From a virus: a stretch of DNA of 41,034 bases. How positions within the stretch are numbered: the first letter of the stretch is position 1; the number at the start of each line of letters is the position of its first letter. Positions 5,377 through 35,848 of this stretch are shown piece by piece. The notes under the pieces were generated by a model. It had not been told where the DNA came from, did no database searches, and saw only the letters and a program-made list of their open reading frames with translations. A program made the position numbers and the translations under genes. The stretch lies in the IMG/VR virus record IMGVR_UViG_3300024305_000001, positions 1 through 41,034 of that record. One strand, written 5' to 3'.

Positions 5377-6433
5377 TTACACTCCCCCTAACTGGAATTT
5401 TATTTTCTCCAAGTACTAAATTTTGTGCTAAACCATTAATCAAAGTACCTCCTATATCTAAAACTCCTGCAAGATTTAAAAAACGAGTTTCTATTTGGCT
5501 TATCCTTACTATTAGATTACTTTCATTGTCCCATGCTTCTGAGAGCTCTAAAAAATAAGCATCTATAACTTGATTTGCATAAGGCTCTACATCAACCCAG
5601 CTCCACCCATCTTGAAATGTTATAGTTGTAGATATATTAACCGTTTGAGATGTTATTCCCTCTACAGTAACAACATGTCCTATTGGTGCGAAACCAATCC
5701 CTTTACCTTGATTAACTACAGGGTCAACAGCAGTTTGAACCGCTTCAACAAGAGCTTCAGAAGGAATACCATAGGTAGAATCTTGAATGACAAGCTTTAC
5801 AGTTCCTCCGCCATTCCAAACAGGATAAACTTTTACTCCTCCTACACCTTGAAGCTTTAGAGTTTTTTCTTTATAATCTGCAATATTCCCACCATAGGCT
5901 TGTTGCTGTAATGTTTGAAAATACCTTTGTCTAAATACTTCTGTATCCTCTTCATCTTCTCCAGGGATTAGTATTTCTGTAAGTTCAGCACTTGTAAGTC
6001 CAGTTATATACTCTATAGGAACAATACTTCCAAGGTTTGCATGACCTATTGTTCCAGCTGTTTCGCATTCAAGTTTGAATACTCCAGTAGATATTTTCTC
6101 AAACACCTTATAATTTACTTCAGCTAAACTAAATCTAGAGCCAATAGGCACATCAATATTGAATTCGCCTTTTAATATTGCTTTTGTTGCAGGTTCTGGA
6201 ATAATTCCTCTTTCTGCAGCTCTTTTTATCAGATAAGGCCTTGTCGCAGTATCAGCAAAAGTAATACTATAATATTTCTCAAGCTCTATATATAACAGTC
6301 TTAGCTCAATAGCTGTAGGCGAAATACTGTCCCATGTTAACGAGCCCTGCCTTTTATCTTTTTTATCAGATATTCTATCTAGCATCCGATTTAAAAGTAC
6401 TTCTAGAGATATGTCACTGTATTCATCCGCCAA
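5369..6433 (-). CDS. xkdT: Baseplate J-like protein (XkdT)
   Basis: The protein has about 354 residues from a TTG at 6433. This start is favoured because GAGGTG lies 7 bases upstream and the frame then overlaps the previous gene by only 11 bases. Typical baseplate J features are RAAERGIIP near residues 70-80, the GEDEEDTEVFRQRYF segment, then AYGGNIADY and the GGGTVKLVI strand. In myophages this protein forms the wedge around the hub and transmits the contraction signal. Confidence 0.9.
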   Translation of the reverse strand: MADEYSDISLEVLLNRMLDRISDKKDKRQGSLTWDSISPTAIELRLLYIELEKYYSITFADTATRPYLIKRAAERGIIPEPATKAILKGEFNIDVPIGSRFSLAEVNYKVFEKISTGVFKLECETAGTIGHANLGSIVPIEYITGLTSAELTEILIPGEDEEDTEVFRQRYFQTLQQQAYGGNIADYKEKTLKLQGVGGVKVYPVWNGGGTVKLVIQDSTYGIPSEALVEAVQTAVDPVVNQGKGIGFAPIGHVVTVEGITSQTVNISTTITFQDGWSWVDVEPYANQVIDAYFLELSEAWDNESNLIVRISQIETRFLNLAGVLDIGGTLINGLAQNLVLGENKIPVRGSVSG

Positions 6434-10816: not shown

Positions 10817-11383
10817 TTAGTTAAAGTAATTCATATCATATGTTATCTTAACTAATCCGAATGTTTTATTTTTACTATCCATATCAGGAATCCAAAAATC
10901 TTCTATTGTATCAGAAACTGGCCTTATGCGATAACTTGCACTATTATCTGCAATTTTAAAATCGTCACTAAATTCTGTTATCCCAAATAAGTGAAGCATA
11001 TCTAGCTTTTTCTCATAAGTGAAAAAATAGCCCTCATCATTCCAATATTTGTTTGAGTACAGCGTGATTCTAACCACTTTATCATCAGCAATTATAAATT
11101 CATAGTGAATTCCATCCTTATCATATTCATAAGTTGTTACAGAAAATTCTCCACTAGCTGTTTTATTTACCCAATCTTCTTTAGTGCTTGGTTCTCCCAT
11201 TTTTTGAACTAACTCATTTGATGTTATTTTGCCATATTCATTGGCATTAAAAATAGGAGTTACTTCATGATTAGAGATAATATTATTTTCATTTTCACGA
11301 TTTATGGCCATTATAAAACTTGACATAAGCAGTAGTCCCATTAATATAAAACCCCACATTAGACAGCCTCGTTTCTTTTTCAT
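10817..11383 (-). CDS. Membrane-anchored or secreted cargo protein in the tail operon
   Basis: This 188-residue protein has a basic N-terminus (MKKKRGCLMWG) followed by a hydrophobic helix at about residues 9-26. A soluble, probably extracellular domain rich in Tyr, Asp and Asn follows. Residues 50-110 (a GKITSNELVQKMGEPS motif, then strands) recall the SmpA/BamE-like fold of small lipobox or anchored proteins. That is inference, and there is no clear lipobox Cys. It splits the chaperone and tape-measure genes, which are normally adjacent, and has its own extended -10 promoter and terminator. I read it as a moron that changes the surface of the lysogen. Confidence 0.7.
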   Translation of the reverse strand: MKKKRGCLMWGFILMGLLLMSSFIMAINRENENNIISNHEVTPIFNANEYGKITSNELVQKMGEPSTKEDWVNKTASGEFSVTTYEYDKDGIHYEFIIADDKVVRITLYSNKYWNDEGYFFTYEKKLDMLHLFGITEFSDDFKIADNSASYRIRPVSDTIEDFWIPDMDSKNKTFGLVKITYDMNYFN

Positions 11384-12311: not shown

Positions 12312-12525
12312 TATTATCAAGCAATTCTCTGACTATAAGCCCTATCGAATAATCAATAACTCCTATCTGATTAAAGTGGCAAGGAATAAAACTACCATCT
12401 TGCCACTTTGACACTTCTTTTACTTCAATTTCTAATCCTAATTTTTTATACTGAATATGATAAACTTCTTTATCTATCTTTAACTCCATCAGTCTAAGTG
12501 AATAATCACAATTTGCAATTTTCAA
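12271..12525 (-). CDS. Small protein coupled to the tail tube gene
   Basis: This 84-residue frame starts at TTG 12525, with AGGAGG five bases upstream that overlaps the tube stop codon, so translation is probably coupled to the tube. The sequence is strand-rich at first (EVYHIQYKKLGLEIEVKEVS) and helical at the end. I recognise no family. It is absent from the canonical XkdM-XkdN order and overlaps the opposite-strand gene at its 3' end. Confidence 0.6.
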   Translation of the reverse strand: MKIANCDYSLRLMELKIDKEVYHIQYKKLGLEIEVKEVSKWQDGSFIPCHFNQIGVIDYSIGLIVRELLDNIKNFLRKTLLHIQ

Positions 12526-18235: not shown

Positions 18236-18428
18236 TACTCCTTTCATACATAGGCTTTTTAGGTCGTCGCCATGACCTTGTATTGCTGATTTTAGGTTCA
18301 GCTAACCAATTATTGACATTAAAATAAGCCGTTTTAAGACATGCTCAGGTCTTTAGCGAAATTCCTTATCGGGTAAGTTTAACGACTTTCCGAGTGGTCG
18401 AGATAATAGATCCCCTCATTTCAGGCAT
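18236..18428 (-). ncRNA. Structured RNA leader of the GP20 scaffold gene (GP20-type candidate)
   Basis: About 190 bases on the minus strand have no good reading frame but many short hairpins. In order they are CGAC/GTCG (loop containing TCGG), CTTA/TAAG (loop CCCGA), AAGAC/GTCTT, and a closing GGCTT/AAGCC stem. The closing stem encloses GGTT/AACC and AGGTC/GACCT hairpins. Two loop pairings are possible: TCGG with CCGA, and the GCTGA loop with TCAGC just downstream. From memory, conserved RNA motifs named GP20-a and GP20-b have been described upstream of GP20 genes; this may be a member or a relative. It starts right after a terminator and ends at the scaffold ribosome site. Confidence 0.6.
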
Positions 18429-24011: not shown

Positions 24012-24980
24012 TTATAATATATCTATTTTATAAATGTAGGCACTATTATAGATAACTGGCCGAGTATTTTTTCGTTCGATTCCTTTAGAATTCACATATT
24101 CATAGATAATAACTAATTCTCCTTTATTTATTATTTTACTTCCCCGGATTTCTTTTATATTCTTTTTTTCGAAATCAAATATTTGAATCACATATATACT
24201 TTCCTCTTTTTTCTCCACTAAAAGTGACATTATGATTATAAATAAAACACTTATACTTGTGAGATAATATACAAAAACTAAAAAATTATCCATTGGTTTA
24301 TTCCAATTATAAGCTATTGCAACTATCAATAAAGAGAACATTAATTCTAAAAAAATTATTCTTATCCCACATATAATTTCATTCTTTTCTTGATTTTTTC
24401 GAATATTAAAAAAATATTTTTTCAATTCGCTATTTTTTTTAGAATAAGCATATATACACAAGCTAAAAGCTATTATTAAAATTATAAATACATTATTTAT
24501 AAAAATATTTTTTATGTATTCAATTATTATATATAACTTATTAGTTAATAATAATAGTATTAATATTAATACTATCATCAAAAATGCTGATATAATATTT
24601 AAAAAAATTTTAAGAATTTGTTTTGTAAATTTGGATGTACTATTGAAATAAAACGAATTATTATTTCTGTTTTTGTAATGAGACATAACTGAATCATAAA
24701 TAATAAATAAAAACCAAAAAATTATAAATAAAATATTAGTTCCTTTTATTTCATTGTTTAAACGCTCAAATATAAAAAATGTTAATGTAGTATATATCAC
24801 AAATTGAAATATTCTCAAAAAAATAATATACATCATTTGAGAATGTTTCAATTTTAAATTTATTTCAGGATTTCCCTCTGATTCCAATAATGCGCTATAT
24901 ACAAAATTAGAAAAAAACAATATTAGTAAACTTATTAACGGAAACATCCATGCGGATAAATTATTTGAAAAAATATTCAT
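24012..24980 (-). CDS. Multi-pass membrane protein, cargo
   Basis: This 322-residue protein has about seven to eight hydrophobic segments in its first 260 residues (for example near 10-30, 50-72, 82-100, 125-150, 155-180, 205-225 and 232-255). A roughly 65-residue soluble C-terminal domain follows, rich in strands and ending in IYKIDIL. It is much more AT-rich than the phage genes around it. A promoter with TTATCA and TATAGT spaced by 17 bases precedes it, and AGGAGGG supports the ATG. No family is recognised. Position and composition suggest a lysogeny-expressed accessory gene. Confidence 0.7.
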   Translation of the reverse strand: MNIFSNNLSAWMFPLISLLILFFSNFVYSALLESEGNPEINLKLKHSQMMYIIFLRIFQFVIYTTLTFFIFERLNNEIKGTNILFIIFWFLFIIYDSVMSHYKNRNNNSFYFNSTSKFTKQILKIFLNIISAFLMIVLILILLLLTNKLYIIIEYIKNIFINNVFIILIIAFSLCIYAYSKKNSELKKYFFNIRKNQEKNEIICGIRIIFLELMFSLLIVAIAYNWNKPMDNFLVFVYYLTSISVLFIIIMSLLVEKKEESIYVIQIFDFEKKNIKEIRGSKIINKGELVIIYEYVNSKGIERKNTRPVIYNSAYIYKIDIL

Positions 24981-25035: not shown

Positions 25036-25078
25036 TAAATAAAAAATACCTAAGAATTTAAAATCTCTAAGGTATTTT
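25036..25078 (-). terminator. Terminator behind the ArpU-like gene
   Basis: On the minus strand AAAATACCT with AGA pairs with TCT and AGGTATTTT, with one mismatch, around a roughly 8-base loop, and a T-run follows. It lies about 85 bases beyond the regulator's stop. Confidence 0.7.
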
Positions 25079-25163
25079 CGAGGAACGAAATTATTAAATT
25101 TCTAGATACTAAGAGTATATGCTTTAATATTTAACACGTAAATAACAGTATTTTCACAACTTT

Positions 25164-25685
25164 TTAACACATTGCATCTACCCCAAACAATAACACTCCT
25201 AATTGATTAATCATTTCATTTTTCCATCTCCTTATTGTCATCTCAGAACAATTAAAGTTCTCAGAAAGCTGAACAAAAGTCATTTCTTTTAAGTAAACTC
25301 CCTCTAAAATATAGTATTTGTCTAATTCAAATTTTCCTTTTCTTTTACATCCATTTTTTAATATTTCAAGTGCCACCTCAATGTGTTGAATCATAATGCC
25401 TGTCCTAAGCTTTGATTTTTTTATAGATGAAATAAAAATCTCAGCTTTATCACTACCTTGCATAAAATCCTCAATTTCTAAAGCTGCAGCTTCTATCTCA
25501 ATATCTTCAATATTTGATATAGCATTATTGTAATGCTCCTTGAAAGAATTATAGTTTTTAAGCAGCGTATCAACATTATGATAAATCTGTTTTCTTTGTC
25601 TTTTTAATTCTTGTTTTTGAAATTCTTTTATAGCTTCTTTTGCTGCTCTTTTTGCAACATCATCAATATTTATGTATTCCTTCAT
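25164..25685 (-). CDS. ArpU/RinA-like late transcription regulator
   Basis: The protein has 173 residues from the ATG at 25685, which has GGGAGGG eight bases upstream; a GTG three codons earlier is too close. The N-terminal half is a charged coiled coil. The C-terminal 60 residues have a sigma region-4-like helix-turn-helix (MTFVQLSENFNCSEMTIRRWKNEM in parts), as in ArpU and other phage late-gene regulators. It is the last gene of the early region and just precedes the packaging genes on the same strand, so it probably activates the late operon. Its ribosome site lies in a long hairpin. Confidence 0.8.
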   Translation of the reverse strand: MKEYINIDDVAKRAAKEAIKEFQKQELKRQRKQIYHNVDTLLKNYNSFKEHYNNAISNIEDIEIEAAALEIEDFMQGSDKAEIFISSIKKSKLRTGIMIQHIEVALEILKNGCKRKGKFELDKYYILEGVYLKEMTFVQLSENFNCSEMTIRRWKNEMINQLGVLLFGVDAMC

Positions 25686-25695
25686 GATATCCACC

Positions 25696-25771
25696 CTCCC
25701 GCTTGAAAAACATCACTTATACATGGTATAATCCTCTTGGATGAGAGTTCTCGTGTTGTTTCAAGCGGGAG
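25696..25771 (-). promoter_or_regulatory. Ribosome-site-masking hairpin ahead of the late regulator
   Basis: A perfect 13-base inverted repeat, CTCCCGCTTGAAA, occupies 25696-25708 and 25759-25771, extended inward by AACA/TGTT with one bulge. In the leftward transcript the 3' arm contains most of the GGGAGGG ribosome site of the late regulator. Read-through early mRNA would fold this arm away, while a transcript starting inside the loop would not. Confidence 0.65.
25703..25732 (+). promoter_or_regulatory. Strong rightward promoter inside the inverted repeat
   Basis: On the plus strand TTGAAA (25703-25708), an 18-base spacer, and an extended TGG-TATAAT (-10 at 25727-25732) form one of the best promoters in the window. 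No plus-strand gene follows. Confidence 0.55.
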
Positions 25772-25778
25772 CTTTTTT
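25739..25778 (+). ncRNA. Candidate short antisense RNA over the late-regulator leader
   Basis: A transcript from the promoter at 25703-25732 would start near 25739 and meet AAGC-GGGA-GCTT (GNRA-type tetraloop) followed by six T at 25763-25778. It would be about 40 bases and complementary to the 5' arm of the leader hairpin. The stem is short, so termination is uncertain. Confidence 0.35.
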
Positions 25779-25983
25779 ATTTGTATTCTTTGCCAGTCTT
25801 AATATCTCTGACTTTTATTCTTTCAGTAAGTTCAAAATCAAATTCCTTAAATATTAACTTCATTCCTTTTATTAGATTAGATACTACTTTATCTCTTTGA
25901 GTTGGCTTGTCAGCTCTTCTTATAGCAACTCCTGCTGTATAATCTGAATATCCTTCTGAGTTTTTAAATATGATATTACTCAT
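25777..25983 (-). CDS. Small early-region protein
   Basis: This 68-residue protein is basic, with the pattern YTAGVAIRRADKPTQRDKVVSNLIKGM. It is probably small and helical with a strand-like end. No family is recognised. It starts one base after the next upstream gene stops, and its stop lies at the edge of the inverted repeat. Such proteins precede the late regulator in related phages, but the role is unknown. Confidence 0.6.
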   Translation of the reverse strand: MSNIIFKNSEGYSDYTAGVAIRRADKPTQRDKVVSNLIKGMKLIFKEFDFELTERIKVRDIKTGKEYK

Positions 25984-35023: not shown

Positions 35024-35848
35024 TTGATACTTTTCTTTGAAAAATTTGGTCCAGTTGAACAAGCCCTCATAGGAACTCTATTCACTTGGGGTGTTACAGC
35101 TCTTGGAGCATCACTTGTTTTCTTTTTTAAATCAATAAATAAAACTATTCTTAATGGAATGCTTGGATTTGCAGCTGGGGTTATGATAGCAGCAAGTTTT
35201 TGGTCATTACTTTCTCCTGCAATAGCTATGGCTGAAGAGCTCGGACAAATAGCATTTCTTACCGCTGCAATTGGATTTTTAGGTGGAGGAGCATTTTTAT
35301 ATTTAGTTGATAAATTATTACCCCATCTACATATGGGATTAGAAACTTCACAAGCTGAAGGTGTTAAAACAAATTGGCAAAGAAGTGTATTGTTAGTTTT
35401 AGCAATTACCCTTCACAATATTCCAGAAGGACTTGCTGTTGGAGTTGCATTTGGAGCAGTAGCTGCAGGAACTGGCAGTTCAGCTTCACTAGCTGGAGCT
35501 ATAGCTCTTGCAATTGGTATAGGTTTACAGAACTTTCCTGAAGGAGCTGCTGTTTCAATACCGCTTAGAAGAGAAGGTTTTAGCAGAACAAAATCATTCT
35601 TATATGGTCAAGCATCTGGGATAGTTGAGCCTATTGCAGGTGTAATCGGAGCATTTGCTGTCGTGAAGATGCAGCCTATCTTACCTTATGCGCTAGCATT
35701 TGCAGCTGGAGCGATGATTTATGTTGTTATTGAAGAACTTATTCCAGAAGCTCAACGTGAAGAAGGCGGCTCAAAAACTGATATAGCAACAATAGGCTGT
35801 ATGATTGGATTTACTATCATGATGGTTCTAGATGTTGCTCTTGGTTAG
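35024..35848 (+). CDS. ZIP-family metal transporter, lysogenic cargo
   Basis: This 274-residue protein starts at TTG with AGGAGG eight bases upstream. It has eight hydrophobic helices, with the metal-site motifs HNIPEG (131-136) and NFPEG (170-174) and the later EELIPEA (237-243). A short His-containing loop (His101, His103) lies before helix 4. This is the GufA-like ZIP group, which imports zinc or related divalent ions into the cytoplasm. It follows the ImmA-like gene by 35 bases and is probably co-transcribed with the repressor. It looks like a bacterial gene carried as cargo, with higher GC content than its neighbours. Confidence 0.92.

Follow-up and report, generated by a model that had tools for sequence, protein, structure and literature searches.

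Directly ahead of the late-regulator gene in a viral record of 41,034 bases (the whole stretch analysed, hereafter the window) lies an arrangement that looks like a real switch. We read it as a compact RNA-based switch that controls translation of the late regulator, in which a small antisense RNA would be the activator, and give this reading a probability of roughly 0.6. Judged by its layout, the candidate unit is seen again in front of further, diverged late regulators in phages of Firmicute type.

The late regulator and its leader

The window carries tail genes to the left of the element, and replication genes and a repressor/recombinase region to the right (roles taken from translations). 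The regulator, which we take to be an ArpU-type protein, is a 173-aa phrog_1558/phrog_36 product for which Pfam gave no match, and its gene starts at ATG 25685, with an alternative GTG at 25694. Terminase genes lie downstream, while a 68-aa gene and RusA lie upstream, the stop codon of the 68-aa gene falling a few nt ahead of the arm that pairs with the Shine-Dalgarno (SD) site. The features of the locus are:

25164..25685, minus strand: ArpU-like late regulator gene (phrog_1558, 1.1e-47; phrog_36 'transcriptional regulator', 4e-7)
25777..25983, minus strand: 68-aa gene (phrog_6568), directly upstream of the regulator leader
25696..25708, minus strand: SD arm of the sense hairpin, TTTCAAGCGGGAG; the same bases hold the plus-strand -35
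25759..25771, minus strand: anti-SD arm of the sense hairpin, target of the predicted antisense RNA
25703..25708, plus strand: -35 TTGAAA of the antisense promoter
25724..25732, plus strand: extended -10 TGGTATAAT of the antisense promoter, with TATAAT at 25727-25732
25740..25778, plus strand: predicted antisense RNA, ~34-39 nt, start at ~25740, T-run 25773-25778 (ends predicted)
25747..25772, plus strand: intrinsic terminator hairpin GTTCTCGT / GCGGGAGC, loop 10, -13.7 kcal/mol vs -4.7 kcal/mol for the sense complement
25038..25171, minus strand: putative late promoter, then a hairpin with a T-run, read from the letters (hairpin coordinates approximate)

A hairpin over the SD site

A sequence-only reading of this DNA had described a perfect 13-base inverted repeat, and the repeat is there (CTCCCGCTTGAAA / TTTCAAGCGGGAG, 25696-25708 and 25759-25771), with 13 of 13 positions paired around a 50-nt loop. 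The window holds two 13-bp repeats with loops of at most 100 nt, the second consisting of A/T only; any 13-bp repeat appears in 41 of 200 dinucleotide shuffles, and one with at least seven G/C, of which the window has a single example, in 1 of 200. The repeat had been described as hiding the GGGAGGG site; of this, GGGAG is in the stem and the final GG lies outside. That the SD is hidden in read-through mRNA is supported by folding, where it is unpaired at 0.09 and costs 12.8 kcal/mol to open, the highest cost among 40 genes (10817..11383 comes close at 12.6). The 101-nt sense leader folds at -31.7 kcal/mol, lower than 200 of 200 shuffles. Relative to the leader alone, the unpaired value of the SD rises from 0.09 to 0.71 when the stretch covered by the antisense RNA is blocked, and to 0.46 when a ribosome sits where the 68-aa gene ends.

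An attenuator or riboswitch of the sense mRNA would end in a sense-strand terminator before the gene, and the window has none ahead of the regulator, the T-run being confined to the antisense side. In the second contig described below the frame of a leader peptide (MYK) continues, and the peptide is not conserved. The arm is unlikely to be a repeated operator, as other sites resembling it carry three mismatches and are as numerous as expected by chance, and no other arm copy with fewer than three mismatches exists anywhere in the window.

An opposing promoter and terminator

The rightward promoter proposed inside the repeat holds up as TTGAAA-18-TATAAT on the plus strand, with an extended TG, the left arm ending in the -35. 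It is the sole TGnTATAAT in the window with a -35 matching at least 5 of 6 positions; such a promoter turns up in 21 of 200 shuffles, and the density of promoter-like sequences in the region is ordinary (17 found vs 16.5 expected). Overlooked earlier was an intrinsic terminator on the same strand, GTTCTCGT-10-GCGGGAGC-T6, with its T-run from 25773. A strict search of the 41 kb (8 paired positions, loop 3-11, six T) returns one plus-strand site, at 25773, and one on the minus strand, with a mean of 0.04 over 100 shuffles; a simpler scan does not list the 25773 site because its loop limit is 8. In the window, the G-U pairs of the terminator are present only in the plus-strand RNA. The coincidence of repeat, promoter and terminator thus points to a ~35-nt transcription unit opposite the regulator, and an opposing short RNA able to pair with the 5′ arm, as proposed earlier, is predicted from promoter and terminator on the plus strand. 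We infer that this unit is transcribed.

A second copy of the element

When viral contigs were searched with the arm, promoter and RNA sequences, the sole further copy of the window's version was found in IMG/VR 3300022181_000039 (L003), with one change across 25696-25778. The regulator behind it differs from that of the window (phrog_36, Sigma70_r4), and similarity between the two ends directly after GCGGGAGGG. Some 620 neighbouring bases hold 11 changes, so the element is not measurably slower-changing than its surroundings. Further hits (L002, L004-L009, L153-L154) were chance matches within unrelated sequence. BLAST against phages and plasmids gave only matches of ~20-25 nt with E of 1 or worse, and a DNA search of 71 genomes of the G003 family gave short matches only. 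Relatives of the 68-aa gene mostly have no spacer behind them and yielded no members; in one (L066) a regulator follows the 68-aa gene directly, without insert.

Recurrence at other late regulators

The regulator sample was non-random, being drawn from neighbours of related terminases, phrog_1558 in one order, ArpU-alignment matches, the protein matches of one member and six phage records, with 80 further ArpU-family loci fetched as the best 80 of 290 relatives. In all, 133 regulators were collected and their leaders dereplicated at 75% ungapped identity to 100 (L195, L196, L239 and L240 are among those dropped), and units were scanned for at -130 to +10 from the regulator start codon, which in L036 was placed by hand at 6322 rather than 6268. 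A promoter-then-terminator scan found an antisense unit at the same place in L216, L220 and L228; an earlier scan, over 80 sources, had found one in L036. Across 66 distinct loci, before the criteria were loosened, units stood at -60 to -65 in L216, L220 and L228 and elsewhere in L211 and L224. Criteria loosened after the sequences had been read (spacer 15-19, a bigger extended -10 bonus, shorter stems) added L199 and L215.

By these criteria, an antisense unit is present in 8 of 100 distinct late-regulator leaders (window, L003, L036, L199, L216, L220, L215, L228), all eight having an extended -10, a start at -41 to -65 and a T-run at -76 to -92 relative to the start codon. On their sense strand the 100 leaders have none (0/100), and 516 other gene starts in the same loci, taken as a control, have one antisense and seven sense units; the antisense enrichment is 3e-6 by Fisher's test, or 1.6e-5 with window and L003 merged. 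Promoters at -75 to -35 are likewise on the antisense strand in 18 of 100 leaders vs 3 of 100 on the sense strand, and the terminator hairpin is stabler on the antisense strand in all 12 leaders examined (near-copies included). The remaining 92 of 100 leaders have no antisense unit, which is therefore not required in general, and none was found by the loosened criteria in the phage records FP_Brigit, Emery, phiCDKH02, BCJA1c, EFC-1 and MT835491. A degenerate unit in L225 (~1736), of the L216/L220/L228 clade, has a hairpin without a T-run and could be either in decay or another version.

On a tree of 99 regulators the unit label takes seven changes, of which well-supported branches demand at least four, and shows no clustering (84 of 500 shuffles are as low). 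The antisense unit would thus have arisen several times or move apart from the regulator; the window/L003 pair, with a shared element and different regulators, suggests the latter.

A common design with different letters

Between groups the letters differ and the layout is common: in members, the antisense RNA complements the anti-SD arm, imitates the SD arm and stops short of the SD, and its complement is in each case an arm able to pair with the SD region. Own arm-SD pairs reach a mean of -23.0 kcal/mol, compared with -16.7 kcal/mol for swapped pairs. The own pairing is best in its row for the window, L003, L036 and L216, second for L199, third for L228 and fourth for L220 and L215, although swaps among L199, L216, L220 and L228 are weak controls because their arms are nearly identical. 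Over the 100 leaders, the median pairing z is -3.2 for unit-bearing leaders and 0.06 for the rest (p 4.5e-7), the former ranking 2, 3, 4, 5, 6, 8, 12 and 37. The exception is L215 (rank 37, z -0.68), whose helix register is ambiguous, and rank 1 falls to L125, a leader with no unit that has an antisense promoter starting at -60 and an SD-like arm, without terminator. In L216 the pairing spans both SD and start codon.

Covariance models extended the set. A group B model was built from six leaders (L195, L196, L199, L216, L220, L228); in 18 sources it matched L240 (1.2e-4), the group C loci L215 and L239 (0.005) and the window in register (0.37), with no match in L003, L036 or six others. In 58 genomes its two best matches (E 0.001 and 0.004) both lay ahead of ArpU-like genes, one of them new (L250) and the other (L251) being the L240 locus, and four weaker matches did not; in 325 further genomes it gave two matches, both unrelated. 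A second model (R2), which also took in group C and the window, returned from 355 genomes two group C loci in or adjoining its training set, three unrelated matches and one new locus, L261. This last was found blind (E 4.2e-4) ahead of a late-regulator-like gene and has the common layout, with TGGTATAAT, an antisense-strand terminator GGGC-GAGA-GCCC-T6 and an arm pairing the SD region at -20.1 kcal/mol. Model matches ahead of late regulators are thus L250, L251, L259 and L261; L252-L257, L260, L262 and L263 are not so placed, and neither R1 nor R2 detects L036 or L125. Group B alone shows no two-sided covariation; with group C and the window added, 11 of 15 pairs have two-sided changes (0 of 500 shuffles as high), in an alignment fitted to the structure and model. 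Rfam 15 gave no match at gathering score for the leaders of the window, L003, L036, L195, L196, L215, L216, L220 or L228; the sole Rfam match in L036, a skipping-rope RNA, lies elsewhere (12350-12434).

Proposed mechanism and alternatives

In the mechanism we propose, early read-through mRNA would fold so that the upstream anti-SD arm pairs with the SD and the regulator is kept off. On the other strand, a host-type promoter set over and between the arms would give rise to a ~35-nt antisense RNA, which would stop at a terminator of its own and overlie the anti-SD arm. Because it carries the sequence of the SD arm, this RNA would compete with the SD for the anti-SD arm, and its pairing with the nascent leader would free the SD for translation. 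By conjecture, the RNA would accumulate with phage genome copy number, such that late genes start once templates suffice. The sequence-only reading had hairpin and opposing RNA jointly delaying the late genes, which does not fit the geometry: the antisense RNA, which starts at least 30 nt upstream of the SD, covers nothing but the anti-SD arm, so that its pairing would set the SD free (unpaired value predicted to go from 0.09 to 0.71). A delay could still occur if the antisense RNA must accumulate first. An RNA with SD-arm letters lying over the anti-SD arm cannot block the SD and can only compete, and for this reason activation is favoured over a block, with moderate confidence.

The antisense unit might instead repress: transcription from the opposing strand, or cleavage of the duplex by RNase III, would lower regulator mRNA, and late genes would stay off in the lysogen. 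Most known phage antisense RNAs do repress, sar and paQ among them, and OOP is reported to act in this way on cII. The strong host-type promoter with its extended -10 also suggests constant activity in a lysogen. The geometry makes repression rather unlikely, however, as in the eight members the RNA starts at -41 to -65, upstream of the SD, and runs away from it, copying the SD arm rather than complementing it, and RNase III cutting would take away the anti-SD arm, not the SD. Quite improbable is an arrangement where the sense hairpin alone matters, blocking internal initiation until opened by the ribosome of the 68-aa gene, with the promoter incidental. The nearby 68-aa stop codon and the SD value of 0.46 with that ribosome in place agree with such translational coupling, but it leaves unexplained the units in 8 of 100 leaders vs 1 of 516 starts elsewhere and the strand-specific stability of the terminator. 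That the antisense RNA has another target, or is the by-product of an insulator, its likeness to the SD arm being accidental, accords with the variation of antisense sequences between groups; it is very improbable given that arm-SD pairing is far stronger in unit-bearing leaders and that diverged groups keep the pairing with different letters. Chance, or a small inserted repeat element, which the insert-free L066 would allow, is hardly credible for an arrangement that is rare in shuffles, recurs in other lineages and has no arm copy with fewer than three mismatches elsewhere in the window.

An activating antisense RNA, then, remains our preferred reading. A wider proposal, which is possible and offered tentatively, is that these units represent a new, SD-mimicking class of cis-encoded antisense mini-RNAs, which would have emerged or been exchanged more than once and would switch on late regulators of Firmicute phages as a genome-copy timer, each replicated genome adding antisense RNA and so unlocking translation of the regulator.

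Other elements in the loci

Behind the regulator, an extended -10 followed by an intrinsic terminator within 90 nt occurs in 41 of the 98 late-regulator loci that include 350 nt of downstream sequence, vs 8 of 1315 control pieces; examples are L054 4535-4601 and L056 6772-6837. Such late promoters with an early terminator recall pR′/tR′ of lambda, a late promoter with an early terminator, and raise the question of whether these regulators act on termination. In the window, minus strand 25171-25126 holds four direct repeats starting TGT at exact 11-bp steps (25169, 25158, 25147, 25136), which precede a -10 TATACT at 25119-25114 and are likely, though putative, binding sites of the regulator; as a raw count, three or more TGT spaced 10-12 bp apart are found in 12 of 98 late-regulator loci.

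Several further elements were seen. A perfect 12-bp inverted repeat, CCTAGTGGCGTT, with a 46-nt loop, spans the start codon of an apparent terS in three contigs (L035 703-772, L037 3835-3904, L040 7279-7348) and is a possible start-codon-hiding hairpin. The motif TCCTACTGGAYATCCAGCGGA, common to L132 and L149, is followed by a sense-strand terminator-like hairpin within 130 nt upstream of the late regulator. The window also has a 322-aa membrane-like protein between regulator and terminase genes (24012-24980, minus strand; no Pfam or PHROG match), an Rfam GP20-b cis-regulatory RNA at 18251-18307 (minus strand, 47.6 bits) and, in the lysogeny region, a ZIP-type zinc transporter gene (35024-35848, plus strand; Pfam Zip 1.6e-28), which is possibly cargo.

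Relation to known systems and significance

The sar RNA of P22 is a small antisense RNA opposite the leader of a phage regulatory gene that covers the ribosome site of its target and represses. The predicted RNA is similarly small and encoded opposite the leader of a regulatory gene, but here the SD is imitated rather than covered; it is not complementary to the SD or start codon, starting at -41 to -65 and running upstream, and so is no sar-type repressor. The paQ RNA of lambda is also antisense to a late regulator, Q, lying inside Q, driven by CII and repressing, whereas the promoter here looks constitutive and gives a self-terminated mini-RNA within the leader. A type I toxin-antitoxin pair would have a small hydrophobic toxin as target, in place of this 173-aa protein. 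LlgA of a Listeria phage, likewise a late regulator, is reported to be inhibited post-transcriptionally by unidentified factors (PMC13123087); A118 gp66 has only an 18-nt gap to the preceding gene and no such leader. The nearest working parallel is IsrK of the Gifsy-1 prophage (orf45-anrP-antQ), a short RNA that binds an inactive leader, makes it translatable and aids 30S binding, the end product being a Q-like protein (PMC4825925). That account makes IsrK a short isoform of a same-strand transcript, in contrast to the present ~35-nt RNA, whose promoter and terminator lie on the other strand, within the leader of the regulator itself. Opening of a silent leader by a short RNA, in the manner of IsrK, is what the model predicts here. 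Literature searches, mostly short of full text, returned nothing describing such a unit at a late regulator.

The timing of the early-to-late switch in Gram-positive phages is poorly known, and the element provides a concrete, testable RNA candidate for it. Activation by an opposite-strand RNA, as predicted, is the reverse of the usual role, and, as a genetic switch, a promoter-terminator unit of 35 nt able to unlock a ribosome site would be unusually small.
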